In this document: positions 1,233 through 5,008 of the stretch, in pieces
Layout: each line of letters begins with the position of its first letter
Numbering within the stretch: position 1 is the first letter of the stretch
NCBI GenBank assembly: GCA_021808195.1
Contig: JAKBCE010000173.1
Coordinates: 1-5,434 of the forward strand
From: Pseudomonadota bacterium
GTDB taxonomy: Bacteria > Pseudomonadota > Gammaproteobacteria > Steroidobacterales > Steroidobacteraceae
Length of the DNA: 5,434 nt
Direction of reading: 5' to 3'
Notes under the pieces: generated by a model
Seen by the model: the letters and a program-made list of their open reading frames with translations, nothing else
What the model was told of the DNA's origin: nothing
Database searches by the model: none
Made by a program: the position numbers and the translations under genes

Positions 1233-1697
1233 ATGCGTGTCCGGATCGTCGTAGCGGATCAGGCCGAGGCGCGTTTCTACGATGCCGTACCGCCCGAGGC
1301 GGGTTTGCACGTGAGCGGTCGACTGCTCGATCCGAGCGCGCACATGCATGAGCGCGACCTGGTCAGCGATCGGCCGGGGCGGGTATTCGATCATGCGCCG
1401 GCGGCCGGCACCCGGCGCGGTGCGGTGGCTCATCACGGTACCGGCGGGGAGCGCTCGGCGCGGCGTGATGCGGCCGTCGTCTTCGCCCGACGCATCGCCG
1501 AGCAGCTCGAGCAGGCCCACCAGCATGGGCAATTCGAGCGGCTGGTGCTGATGGCCAATCCGCGCTTCCTCGGCATGTTGCGCCGCACGCTGCCCACGGA
1601 GCTCGAGCGGTGCGTGGTCGCCGAGGTGCACAAGGACCTGGTGCACCAGAGCGATCAGGTGGTCAGCGCCCACATCCCGCCGCAGGCGCTGCGCTGA
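1233..1697 (+). CDS. Host attachment protein family (PF10116), biochemical function unknown
   Basis: A 154-residue predicted soluble protein of the family annotated 'protein required for attachment to host cells'. Recognisable family parts are the N-terminal strand RIVVADQAEARFYD (residues 4-17), the block ERDLVSDRPGRVFD (40-53), a helix ending in FERLVLMANPRFLGMLR (about 101-117), and VVAEVHKDLVHQS near the end (128-140). The length is normal for the family. There is no signal peptide or membrane segment, so it probably acts in the cytoplasm despite the family name, which came from an Agrobacterium attachment locus; the fold resembles eRF1/baeRF-like domains. The start is supported by GGAG at 1220-1223, nine nt upstream. 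It has its own upstream promoter candidate and is followed by the separate metX promoter, so it looks monocistronic. A 6-bp hairpin spans its stop codon without a T-run. Family membership is solid; role is not known. Confidence 0.88.
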   Translation: MRVRIVVADQAEARFYDAVPPEAGLHVSGRLLDPSAHMHERDLVSDRPGRVFDHAPAAGTRRGAVAHHGTGGERSARRDAAVVFARRIAEQLEQAHQHGQFERLVLMANPRFLGMLRRTLPTELERCVVAEVHKDLVHQSDQVVSAHIPPQALR

Positions 1698-1721: not shown

Positions 1722-1750
1722 TTGACCGGGCGCACCGCTCCTCCTACACT
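1722..1750 (+). promoter_or_regulatory. Sigma70 promoter of the SAM riboswitch-metX-metB operon
   Basis: TTGACC (1722-1727; 5 of 6) and TACACT (1745-1750; 4 of 6) are separated by the optimal 17 bp. The predicted transcription start near 1757 falls immediately before the first base of riboswitch helix P1 at 1759. This placement, with the aptamer at the very 5' end of the transcript, strongly supports the call. Confidence 0.75.
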
Positions 1751-1758
1751 CGGCACAA

Positions 1759-1890
1759 CTCATCGAGACCGGCTGAGGGATAGGCCCTTAGACGCCGGGG
1801 CAACCGCCAGACCTAACCAGTCTGTTAAGGTGCCAACTCCTGCGATGCATCCGGATCCGACTGCGGGTCCGGAATGAATCGACAGATGAG
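1759..1890 (+). promoter_or_regulatory. SAM-I (S-box) riboswitch aptamer
   Basis: The RNA senses S-adenosylmethionine. The four-helix S-box fold is visible. P1 pairs 1759-1764 (CTCATC) with 1885-1890 (GATGAG). P2a pairs 1769-1773 with 1794-1798. A kink-turn with tandem G-A pairs (1775/1792, 1776/1791) leads to P2b GGG/CCC (1777-1779 with 1785-1787). GCAACC at 1800-1805 and AAGGTGCCAA at 1827-1836 are the conserved P3 base and core. Upper P3 is CAGAC/GTCTG (1808-1812 with 1820-1824). P4 is an 8-bp stem (1851-1858 with 1865-1872) extended below by GATGCAT (1844-1850) with ATGAATC (1874-1880). J1/2 GAGA (1765-1768) precedes P2. In P1 the A-U pair expected next to SAM is present (1762 with 1887). 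One deviation: L2 is ATAGG rather than the usual ACTGG. The downstream metX and metB genes are classic SAM-I targets. Confidence 0.95.
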
Positions 1891-1998
1891 CGAACTGTGT
1901 GGCTTCGCACCTCTTGGTGCGGGGATGGACGCAGCCCCCTGCCAGGCCCCTGGCAGGTCGCTCCGCGAGTGCTCGGTGACACGAGAGGATAGCGGAGC
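1888..1998 (+). promoter_or_regulatory. Expression platform: Shine-Dalgarno-sequestering hairpin with competing anti-sequester pairing
   Basis: The metX Shine-Dalgarno GGAG (1994-1997, 6 nt before the ATG) lies within GCGGAGC (1992-1998), which is exactly complementary to GCTCCGC (1960-1966); CTCG/CGAG (1972-1975 with 1982-1985) can close an inner stem. The anti-Shine-Dalgarno can instead pair with the aptamer: TCGCTC (1958-1963) is exactly complementary to GAGCGA (1888-1893), whose first three bases belong to the 3' strand of P1. SAM binding should keep P1 closed and allow sequestration; without SAM the alternative pairing would free the ribosome binding site. Two further hairpins lie between: CGCACC/GGTGCG (1906-1911 with 1916-1921) and CCTGCCAG/CTGGCAGG (1938-1945 with 1950-1957). 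No hairpin is followed by a T-run, so control of translation (possibly with Rho) is inferred. Confidence 0.7.
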
Positions 1999-2003
1999 CA
2001 TCC

Positions 2004-3044
2004 ATGAACGCGATTGCTGAGGTTCGCCCGATCGAGGCGCAGTCCCCTGTGCGGAGTGCACCAAGCGAGTCCGTGCGCGAAGGGATTTTCGAGATGCCCG
2101 GCGGCCTGCACCTGCACCACGGCGGGCGGCTGCCCGATGTGCGCATCGCGTGGCGGCTGGCCGGTGCGCCGAGCGCGCCCGTGGTCTGCGCGCTCGGGGG
2201 GATTTCCGCACATCGGCGCGTGTGTCTGACCGAGCAGCCCCGCCAGGGGTGGTGGTCCGAGATCGCCGGTCCCGGCCGTCCGCTCGACACCGAGCGCTGC
2301 CGGGTGCTGAGCTTCGATTATCTCGGCGGCAGCGGCGAGAGCACCGGTCCGCGTCCCGGGGAGGCATTCCCGAGCATCTCCACGTACGACCAGGCCGAAG
2401 TGCTCGCGCGCCTGCTCGATCACCTCGGCATCAAGGCGCTGCGGGCGATCGCCGGCGGATCCTACGGCGGCATGGTCGCACTCGCCTTCGGCGAGCGCTT
2501 CCCCGAGCGCGTCGGTGCGCTGATCGTCCTGTGCGCCACGGATCGGCCGCACCCGCTGGGATCGGCCTGGCGGGCGGTGCAGCGCGACATCGTGCGGTTT
2601 GGACTTCAGGCCGGCCGTCCGGCCGAAGCCCTCGCGCTCGCTCGGGCGCTCGCGATGTCCACGTACCGAAGTGGCGAGGAGTTCGCCGCGCGCTTCGCCG
2701 GCCCGCCGGTCTTCGAGGACGGCCGGGCGCGCCTGCCCGTCGAGCGGTATCTGGCCGCGCGCGGCGCGAGCTATGCGGCCGAACACCGTCCCGAGGCGTT
2801 CCTGTGTCTGTCCGAATCGATCGACCTGCACCGCGTCGAGGCGAACCGCATCTGCGTGCCGACCACGGCCGTGGCCGTGCGCGAGGACATGCTCGTGCCC
2901 CTGAGCGAGGTGCGCGCCCTGGTGGCGCGGCTGCATGCGGCGCGCCTGTGCGAGATCTCCTCGATCTACGGCCACGATGCGTTCCTGAAGGAATCCCAGC
3001 AACTTCGCGGCGTGTTCGCGCCGCTCTTCGAGAGCACCTGCTGA
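2004..3044 (+). CDS. metX: MetX-like homoserine O-acyltransferase
   Basis: This alpha/beta-hydrolase-fold enzyme acylates the hydroxyl of homoserine with acetyl- or succinyl-CoA, committing it to methionine synthesis. Family hallmarks in order: GGISAH near 65-70, QGWWSEIAGPGRPLDT at 81-96 (MetX consensus GWW...GPG..IDT), YLGGSGESTGP at 106-116, the nucleophile elbow GGSYGGM at 151-157, and GHDAFL at 323-328. The inferred catalytic triad is Ser153, Asp295 (REDMLVP) and His324. At 346 residues it is a little shorter than typical MetX (about 360-380), and the elbow has Tyr where most MetX have Met. The start is supported by GGAG at 1994-1997 and by the riboswitch ending just upstream. It is first in a two-gene operon and abuts metB with no gap. 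Acyl-donor choice cannot be read from the sequence. Serine O-succinyltransferase, a MetX relative, is a less likely alternative given SAM control and the metB neighbour. Confidence 0.9.
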   Translation: MNAIAEVRPIEAQSPVRSAPSESVREGIFEMPGGLHLHHGGRLPDVRIAWRLAGAPSAPVVCALGGISAHRRVCLTEQPRQGWWSEIAGPGRPLDTERCRVLSFDYLGGSGESTGPRPGEAFPSISTYDQAEVLARLLDHLGIKALRAIAGGSYGGMVALAFGERFPERVGALIVLCATDRPHPLGSAWRAVQRDIVRFGLQAGRPAEALALARALAMSTYRSGEEFAARFAGPPVFEDGRARLPVERYLAARGASYAAEHRPEAFLCLSESIDLHRVEANRICVPTTAVAVREDMLVPLSEVRALVARLHAARLCEISSIYGHDAFLKESQQLRGVFAPLFESTC

Positions 3045-4220
3045 ATGAGCCCGTCCAACGACCCGAAATCGCAAGTGACCCGCACCGTGCGCGCGGGCCT
3101 GGAGTCCGATCCCTCCACCGGCGCCGTCGTGCCGCCGATTCATCTGAGCTCGATGTTCGCGTTCCGCGCCTTCGGCGAGAAGGGCCGCTACGACTACACC
3201 CGCTCGGGCAATCCCACCCGCGACCTGCTGGGCGGAGCGCTCGCACAGCTCGAGGGCGGTGCCGGGGCGGTGGTCACGGCCACCGGCATGGCGGGCGTGA
3301 CGCTCACCGGGTACCTCGTGCCGGCCGGCGGGCGCATCGTGGCGCCGCACGATTGCTACGGCGGGACGTATCGGTTGTTCGATGCCTGGCGCCGTCGTGG
3401 TGAGCGCGAGGTGGAGTTCGTCAATTTTGCCGACGAGGCAGCACTGCGTGCCGCGCTGTCGCGCCCGGCCGCACTGCTGTGGATCGAGACCCCGAGCAAT
3501 CCGCTGCTGCGCATCACGGACATCGAGCAGGTCGCGGCGCTCGGCCATGCGGCCGGCGCGCGCGTGGCGGTCGACAACACCTTTCTGTCCCCGGCGTGGC
3601 AGCAGCCGCTCGCGCTCGGCGCCGATGTGGTGGTGCACTCCACGACCAAGTACCTCAATGGTCACAGTGACGTGGTCGGCGGTGCCGTGGTGGCGCGCGA
3701 GCGGGGTGTGCACGATGAGCTCGCCTGGTGGGCCAACTGCCTCGGGCTCACCGGTTCTCCGTTCGACAGCTTCCTCACCCTGCGCGGGCTGCGCACGCTG
3801 CATGCCCGGCTCGAGCATCACGGTCGCAATGCGCAGGCACTTGCCGAATGGCTCGCTGCCGAGCGCGGCGTGAACCGTGTGTACTATCCGGGCCTGGCGA
3901 GTCATGCCGGCCACGACGTGGCGCGGCGTCAGCAGCGCGGTTTTGGCGCGATCGTCACGGTCGAGCTCGCGGGTGGGCTCGCCGCGGTACGGGCGTTCTG
4001 CGAGGGTCTGGAGTATTTCTCGCTCGCCGAGTCACTCGGCGGCGTCGAGAGTCTGGTCGCGCATCCGGCGACCATGACCCATGCCGCGATGGATCCGCAA
4101 GCGCGCGCCAAGGCGGGGCTCACTGACGGTCTGATCCGACTGTCGGTCGGCATCGAGGCGCTGGAGGATCTGCGCGCCGACCTCGCTGCCGGGTTGGCGA
4201 GGGCGCGCGCGACGATTTAG
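3045..4220 (+). CDS. metB: Cystathionine gamma-synthase MetB (PLP enzyme)
   Basis: MetB replaces the acyl group of O-acylhomoserine with cysteine to make cystathionine, the transsulfuration step to methionine. The 391 residues follow E. coli MetB (386) throughout. PPIHLSS is at 30-36, RYDYTRSGNPTRD at 48-60 (phosphate-binding Tyr51 and Arg53), PHDCYGGTYRLFD at 101-113 with the PLP-stacking Tyr105, Asp177 in VDNTFLSP, and the PLP lysine Lys202 in HSTTKYLNGHSDVVGG. ELAWWANCLGLTGSPFDS, AESLGGVESL (328-337) and the substrate-carboxylate Arg365 complete the active site. ELAWWAN and the overall match favour true MetB over MetC, MetY or MetZ. The ATG directly follows the metX stop (TGA|ATG) with only a weak GAGAG about 10 nt upstream, so translation is probably coupled to metX. 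The stop overlaps that of the convergent lipoprotein gene. No homoserine dehydrogenase gene follows. Confidence 0.95.
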   Translation: MSPSNDPKSQVTRTVRAGLESDPSTGAVVPPIHLSSMFAFRAFGEKGRYDYTRSGNPTRDLLGGALAQLEGGAGAVVTATGMAGVTLTGYLVPAGGRIVAPHDCYGGTYRLFDAWRRRGEREVEFVNFADEAALRAALSRPAALLWIETPSNPLLRITDIEQVAALGHAAGARVAVDNTFLSPAWQQPLALGADVVVHSTTKYLNGHSDVVGGAVVARERGVHDELAWWANCLGLTGSPFDSFLTLRGLRTLHARLEHHGRNAQALAEWLAAERGVNRVYYPGLASHAGHDVARRQQRGFGAIVTVELAGGLAAVRAFCEGLEYFSLAESLGGVESLVAHPATMTHAAMDPQARAKAGLTDGLIRLSVGIEALEDLRADLAAGLARARATI

Positions 4221-5008
4221 CCGGCCGTGATGCGCTCGATCTTGCCGCGCACGGTGAACGCGGCGGTGTCGCGCCCGAGAATGAGAAAAATGCCGTACGC
4301 ACTGAGATAGACCATCCGGCTGCGCGAGCGGACGACGCCATCGCGCACGATGGTGCACGCAAGGGTGAGCGCACGACCCGGGAGCCTCACGAGCAGCCGG
4401 CTGGCGGGCTGCGCGTGAGGCTGCGCGGTGCAGGTCTCCTGAGTCGGCCGCCCGAGCCAGCGCAGCGTCATGTGATATTGGTGGCCCGGTTGCGGGTGCG
4501 CGATGCCTGGCGTCAGCCCCGAGAGCTGCTGCAGTCGCTGCGGGGCGCGTACGAACGCGAATCGCTCGTTGATGTGCTGGTGCTCGAGACTGAGCAGGCC
4601 GAGATAGCTCAGATTCAGATTCAGCGCCACCGGGAGTGTGTTGATCGAGATGCGCTCGCGGTCCTGCAGGTAGCCGTTGCCGATCGGCGTGAAGGTGTCG
4701 GTCACGCGCCCGGTGATGCTCTTGCCGTCCGCGGTGTCATGGCGCACGAACTGCCGCGTCACCACCAGGCGCTGAAAGGGCACTGAGGCGGTACCGGCCC
4801 GGGCGAGAGCGGCGCGGACCTCCGGCGGCAACAGCGCCGGCACATAGTGCACGGTCATGTACGCGTTCAGATGACGCGTCACTTGCGCGACCTTGAGGAA
4901 GGGCGCGTGCGCAGTGTGCGGCGCAGCGTTCGGCGGGGGCGAGGCGGCGCACGCGCTCACCCCCAGTGCGGCCAGTGCGCACCCCCAGCGAGTTCGATGA
5001 GCCCTCAT
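4217..5008 (-). CDS. Predicted lipoprotein of unknown function
   Basis: I do not recognise this 263-residue protein. Its N-terminus is a lipoprotein signal: basic MRAHRTRWG, a short hydrophobic stretch (10-17), then the lipobox VSAC with the lipidated cysteine at residue 20. An Ala/Pro-rich linker follows (21-36). The mature part looks beta-rich, with alternating strands such as RVTDTFTPI (101-109) and NLNLSYLGLLSL (130-141), plus RMVYLSAYGIFLILG near the end (231-245). Two cysteines, 193 and 218, could form a periplasmic disulfide. The start is strong: GGGAGG (minus strand, 5019-5014) with a 5-nt spacer. The gene lies 45 bp downstream of leuB on the same strand and may be read through from it. 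Its TAA (4219-4217) overlaps the convergent metB stop. Membrane-anchored location is well supported; function is unknown. Confidence 0.85.
   Translation of the reverse strand: MRAHRTRWGCALAALGVSACAASPPPNAAPHTAHAPFLKVAQVTRHLNAYMTVHYVPALLPPEVRAALARAGTASVPFQRLVVTRQFVRHDTADGKSITGRVTDTFTPIGNGYLQDRERISINTLPVALNLNLSYLGLLSLEHQHINERFAFVRAPQRLQQLSGLTPGIAHPQPGHQYHMTLRWLGRPTQETCTAQPHAQPASRLLVRLPGRALTLACTIVRDGVVRSRSRMVYLSAYGIFLILGRDTAAFTVRGKIERITAG

Follow-up and report, generated by a model that had tools for sequence, protein, structure and literature searches.

Analysis of the window (the whole stretch of DNA examined, 5,434 nucleotides, from an uncultured gammaproteobacterium) revealed, in this order on the forward strand, a promoter-like site, a SAM-I riboswitch aptamer, a 111-base expression platform, and the genes metX and metB. 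The aptamer was identified with the RF00162 covariance model, which matched along its full length (model positions 1 to 108 of 108; E value, 3.1e-16) and above the gathering score of 44.4 bits, placing the element in the SAM-I class. Riboswitches of this class are found 5' of methionine or SAM genes, and here the aptamer precedes metX and metB. The features considered below are as follows.

1722 to 1750, forward strand: promoter-like site TTGACC-17-TACACT, 9 of 12 consensus matches
1757 to 1892, forward strand: SAM-I aptamer (P1 to P4), RF00162, 73 bits
1759 to 1767, forward strand: P1 5' strand (1759-1764) and the next three bases; 1760-1767 is the predicted partner of the mimic in the ON state
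1885 to 1893, forward strand: P1 3' strand GATGAG (1885-1890) with a CG extension; in the ON model, 1888-1892(93) is the partner of the anti-SD
1895 to 1934, forward strand: P5 hairpin, whose internal loop is conserved; 12 of 15 pairs show two-sided changes
1901 to 1908, forward strand: GGCUUCGC, another copy of the anti-SD, located in the 5' arm of P5 and able to form 8 bp with 1992-1999
1938 to 1957, forward strand: P6 hairpin; two-sided changes in 8 of 8 pairs
1959 to 1966, forward strand: anti-SD; 1960-1966 pairs with the SD, 1958/59-1963 with the P1 3' strand
1972 to 1979, forward strand: P1 mimic CUCGGUGA, a copy of the P1 3' strand inside the SD hairpin, between anti-SD and SD
1992 to 1998, forward strand: Shine-Dalgarno (SD) region GCGGAGC, mean column identity 0.97
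2004 to 3044, forward strand: metX, homoserine O-succinyltransferase (NF006449, 345.1 bits; cut-off, 296)
3045 to 4220, forward strand: metB, cystathionine gamma-synthase (TIGR02080, 548.6 bits; cut-off, 504.55)

The ATG of metB abuts the metX stop codon with no gap between them, and MetX is 99% identical to that of G001, the nearest relative genome compared. In the genus, the genes 3' of the riboswitch are metX-metB or metB by itself. The -10 element of the promoter-like site ends 6 nt ahead of the first aptamer base, so the P1 5' strand is where the predicted transcript would start. A site with 9 of 12 matches and a -10 element ending 5 to 8 nt before the aptamer was present in 34 of the 53 leaders of the genus. 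No terminator-like site was detected between positions 1600 and 2100, and the intrinsic terminator with a T-run that characterizes transcriptional S-box leaders was thus not found in this region. The original prediction, which had described a SAM-I aptamer on metX-metB with no T-run after any leader hairpin, was confirmed on both points. The neighborhood also contains a gene for a Host_attach/baeRF family 12 protein immediately 5' of the riboswitch promoter (1233-1697, forward strand), a gene for a YerC/YecD TrpR-related protein, perhaps a histidine regulator, that adjoins hisG (604-996 and 3-614, both reverse strand), and a 263-residue reading frame without a Pfam or NCBIfam match (4217-5008, reverse strand).

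The distribution of RF00162 was determined in three sets of genomes. Matches were obtained in 70 of 99 relatives (52 of the 58 that belong to the genus), in 138 of 246 genomes of the order, and in only 10 of 369 genomes drawn across the class. The riboswitch is therefore frequent in the order and rare across the class, a regional speciality of this order. Two sets of leaders were used for comparison: a genus set of 53 (52 relatives plus the window) and a full set of 160 in 32 groups, with 107 leaders outside the genus. The full set consisted of 71 leaders from the relatives, the window, 7 from the class draw, 21 from the order search, and 60 further leaders. The order leaders represent part of the genomes with an aptamer match, and L161 and L179 were left out because of wrong orientation or truncation. 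MetX of this group was also encountered in three records whose titles look mislabelled, namely, L123 and L132 (metagenome-assembled genome records titled Klebsiella pneumoniae) and L125 (titled Planktophila).

The original prediction rested on two pairings. The anti-SD strand 1960-1966 (GCTCCGC) is complementary to the SD region in 7 of 7 positions, as claimed, and all seven pairs are present in 50 of 53 genus leaders, which is the SD-sequestering hairpin expected of a translational riboswitch. The strand 1958-1963 (TCGCTC) is complementary to 1888-1893 (GAGCGA) in 6 of 6 positions, and three bases of the latter (1888-1890) do belong to the P1 3' strand (1885-1890). Within the window alone, the two pairings are weak evidence and only slightly out of the ordinary: when the intervening region was shuffled 200 times at the mononucleotide level, 3.5% and 5.5% of the shuffles equalled the two matches. 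The bases shared by the two helices are not striking, because the two best helices overlapped by at least three bases in 40% of shuffles. It is the comparison across leaders that decides. Across the 53 genus leaders, 98.9% of P7 cells were paired, and 86.6% of cells of the whole structure were paired, versus 39 to 45% in slid controls. The first five pairs of the P1 3'/anti-SD helix were kept in 52 of 53 genus leaders and all six in only 8; the score of this helix was reached by 49 of 53 genus leaders and equalled by 4 of 150 permuted strands. Outside the genus it fell to chance level (17 of 107 leaders reached the score; permuted mean, 21.8). The second pairing thus stood as a five-pair helix of the genus, and its sixth pair and any wider conservation did not. 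The further anti-SD copy in the P5 arm formed at least 7 such pairs in 23 of 53 genus leaders. These results indicate that the leader is real and functional-looking. Within the covarying P5 helix, the internal loop (1901-1903, GGC, facing 1924-1928, GAUGG) is also conserved, with columns 1925-1928 at 0.89 to 1.00 in the genus, and is possibly a tertiary contact or a binding site.

Comparison of the leaders revealed a third complementarity that the original prediction had missed. The octamer CUCGGUGA (1972-1979) can form 8 bp, including one G-U pair, with 1760-1767 on the P1 5' strand; a match of this kind was reached in 4.4% of shuffles. Four islands stand out in the genus alignment, the P1 extension (mean column identity, 0.98), the anti-SD (0.97), the mimic core 1974-1979 (0.98), and the SD (0.97), against 0.57 to 0.85 elsewhere and 0.57 to 0.66 in the stretches alongside the mimic core. 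The six pairs of the core were intact in 49 of 53 genus leaders (exceptions, L009, L038, L040, and L046), and all three pairings (7/7 in P7, 5/5 in the P1 3'/anti-SD helix, and 6/6 in the mimic core) were intact in 45. The full set was then searched for a helix, at least 7 bp in strength, that the P1 5' strand could form with the 105 bases 3' of the aptamer. Such a helix was found in 101 of 160 leaders (51 of 53 in the genus and 50 of 107 outside), and none of 300 strand permutations reached this number (mean, 11.7; maximum, 79 leaders); a run of 150 permutations agreed. Since the permuted strands faced the same related sequences, shared ancestry is partly controlled for, and the long tail of the permutations indicates that ancestry still matters. 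At the level of groups, the mimic occurred in at least half of the leaders in 13 of 32 groups (permuted mean, 1.7; maximum, 11), of which two are doubtful, f1.g25 with a lost platform and f1.g305 with a match at the start codon. Several groups within the same family (g294, g298, g3, and g306) had no mimic or only a short one. In two leaders with a divergent P1, the own strand found partners of 11 bp (L078) and 12 bp (L079), and no foreign strand did better. When strands were swapped among 12 leaders with other P1 5' strands (L021 being in the wrong orientation), only 2 beat every foreign strand.

The position of the mimic relative to the anti-SD also recurred outside the genus. Among 63 mimic-bearing leaders there, at least 6 anti-SD pairs were located just 5' of the mimic in 31 (60 shuffles: mean, 15.4; maximum, 21) and at least 7 pairs in 20 (shuffle mean, 6.0); with a threshold of at least 5 pairs, the count of 36 to 37 of 63 was not above shuffles (mean, 32.0). 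The alignment of orthologous leaders, proposed earlier as a check, showed both predicted pairings conserved in the genus. For the ON helices, covariation within the genus yielded nothing usable and paired cells were not above shuffles (99/500); a single compensated pair was seen in the P1 3'/anti-SD helix, in L011. Because the P1 5' strand is invariant in the genus, the ON helices can show conservation but hardly covariation.

To compare the alternative structures, the span 1757-2030 was folded. Constrained folding with P1 open or closed, also suggested with the original prediction, gave nearly equal energies of -125.0 kcal/mol for the OFF fold (P1 and the SD hairpin) and -124.7 kcal/mol for the ON fold (both exchanged helices), in a model that leaves SAM, Mg2+, and the order of transcription outside. 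Forcing either ON helix made the other form too. With the ON helices forced, a small local hairpin held the edges of the SD (unpaired probability, 0.04 to 0.11) and left its middle largely open (0.65 to 0.85). The plain fold was less favorable to the model: the unconstrained structure (-127.1 kcal/mol) contained the SD hairpin without P1, paired the P1 5' strand near the start codon, and left the SD an unpaired probability of about 0. When the SD hairpin alone was barred in the window, P1 was kept and the SD paired with the P5 copy at 1901-1908. The same constraint in the 53 leaders abolished P1 in 46 and produced the mimic helix (5 or more bp) in 17, the P1 3'/anti-SD helix (4 or more bp) in 27, and both in 9. 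The mimic helix and the SD hairpin could also coexist as a pseudoknot, with the SD staying hidden. Mutually exclusive pairings linking P1 to SD access are thus predicted: the genus conserves both alternative helices, and the folds have near-equal energies. The thermodynamics permit a switch, short of proof.

The location of the aptamer on metX-metB, the lack of an intrinsic terminator, the SD hairpin conserved in the genus, and the P1 3'/anti-SD pairing together make translational control the best reading, as the original prediction had it. That model was incomplete, since it lacked the mimic, which is far more widespread than the second pairing. We infer that SAM binding, strand exchange, and translation as the regulated step connect these elements, and that the leader is probably a SAM-I riboswitch controlling translation of metX, and of metB with it, in which the P1 mimic serves as the ON element. 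With SAM, P1 (1759-1764 with 1885-1890) would be closed, the anti-SD 1960-1966 would pair with the SD 1992-1998, and metX would be off. Without SAM, P1 would open and each of its strands would re-pair within the SD hairpin, 1760-1767 of the 5' strand with the mimic (1972-1979) and 1888-1892/93 of the 3' strand with the anti-SD (1958/59-1963). The two new helices would be nested and mutually helpful, and would jointly remove the anti-SD and loosen the SD.

A simpler scheme would have the P1 3'/anti-SD pairing (1888-1893 with 1958-1963) as the only ON helix, with 1972-1979 playing no switching role. The genus data agree with it, in the five pairs kept in 52 of 53 leaders, the score reached by 49 and matched by only 4 of 150 permuted strands, and the compensated pair in L011. 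However, it is unlikely, because outside the genus that helix is no more frequent than chance would have it (17 of 107 against a permuted mean of 21.8), because it leaves the SD-like conservation of the mimic core and the wide recurrence of the mimic unexplained, and because forcing that helix alone brings the mimic helix as well.

The closest studied relative of the switch proposed here is the SAM-IXcc riboswitch of the Xanthomonas campestris met operon. According to the portions of Tang et al. (2020; PMC7270179) consulted, reporters and probing showed this riboswitch to be mainly translational (98% repression in a translational versus 24% in a transcriptional fusion); in its SAM-free RNA the SD stays paired, and it is released by uncharged initiator tRNA, which is recognized by means other than simple base pairing. 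The leader in the window could be a dual switch of this type, in which a SAM-I aptamer is combined with an anti-SD that responds to uncharged initiator tRNA as well. The shared features in that description are the SAM-I aptamer, a gene order that likewise starts with homoserine O-succinyltransferase and metB, the absence of an intrinsic terminator, a platform of three hairpins (P5 to P7), SD/AUG sequestration, and an SD that is paired in the SAM-free fold, which is here a prediction (PMC7270179). The two differ in P7: in Xanthomonas, as the consulted text has it, anti-AUG and anti-SD arms form P7a and P7b, whereas in the window the outer arm is the anti-SD 1960-1966, with the P1 copy inside the hairpin and no anti-AUG outer strand. 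A dual switch is therefore decidedly unlikely here. Three leaders of the same class (L073, L076, and L078) resemble the published description and presumably come from Xanthomonas relatives; in these, it is the P1 copy that lies opposite the start codon.

Control of transcription instead of translation, through Rho or the stacked GC-rich hairpins, is very unlikely. Tang et al. report, in the same portions, a weak effect in the transcriptional fusion (about 24%) and partial attenuation by P5 to P7 (PMC7270179), and sequence alone leaves room for Rho sites, but the number of terminator-like sites is zero and the conserved islands are the anti-SD and the SD. Translation of a short upstream frame starting at the conserved RTG of the mimic (a purine-rich site followed by GTG or ATG) is a highly improbable means of controlling metX: AGGAG lies about 6 nt before GTG in many relatives and the frame runs in phase into metX in some, yet, as judged by reading the sequences, its frame and length vary among relatives, the frame that opens at 1976 in the window is not in register with metX, L009 has no start codon there, and the long matches to divergent P1 strands (L078 and L079) favor pairing.

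The preferred reading, a translational switch with the P1 mimic as ON element, also has counterparts among other known SAM-I systems. In the Bacillus subtilis yitJ S-box leader, which has an aptamer of this family, strand migration decides between P1 and a competing helix (PMC3656099, in the part consulted). There, one P1 strand and a downstream segment form an antiterminator and the output is termination, whereas the prediction for the window is that both P1 strands are recruited, with SD access as the output. In 2007, Barrick and Breaker inferred that some SAM-I leaders place the ribosome-binding site within the P1 stem (PMC2258182, excerpts); these are translational like the leader in the window but have no separate platform. 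L075 and L199 seem to be of that kind: in these leaders and in L197 and L202, all of the same family, the platform is seemingly lost, and a purine-rich site and start codon lie 3' of the P1 3' strand or overlap with it. Translational S-box riboswitches, and so translational SAM-I elements, are also the subject of Bhagdikar et al. (2020, J Biol Chem), judging by its title. The original prediction had held a translational SAM-I in a GC-rich proteobacterium to be worth recording; in view of the Xanthomonas experiments of 2020 (PMC7270179) and the P1-stem sites of 2007 (PMC2258182), translational SAM-I control is not new and the novelty is smaller than stated. Neither the placement of a P1 copy within the SD hairpin nor the occurrence of such copies across the order was recognized in the portions consulted of open-licence PubMed Central text, including PMC6230763 (the 2018 Xanthomonas paper) and PMC4239095 and with figures outside the scope; the arrangement may already have been published, Fig. 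2a of Tang et al. being one place where it could appear.

A broader proposition can be made, to which we give somewhat less than even weight. Leaders across the order would carry, within the SD hairpin, a copy of the P1 3' strand between the anti-SD and the SD, and on loss of SAM the extreme 5' end of the RNA would be able to invade that hairpin. In the genus, the anti-SD would at the same time be captured by the released P1 3' strand, giving a double strand exchange, and leaders of the Xanthomonas type would use the copy as the strand that blocks the start codon. A single self-copy principle might then underlie the translational SAM-I riboswitches of the class.

To our knowledge, few translational SAM-I switches have been studied by experiment. 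If the mimic is misread, an ordinary translational SAM-I riboswitch remains. The SAM-free Xanthomonas RNA still hid the SD, which, according to the text consulted, led its authors to turn to a tRNA co-signal (PMC7270179). A putative, conserved ON element made of RNA only in these relatives would be a testable alternative or complement to that co-signal, and the 160 natural leaders, with or without the mimic, offer ready comparisons.
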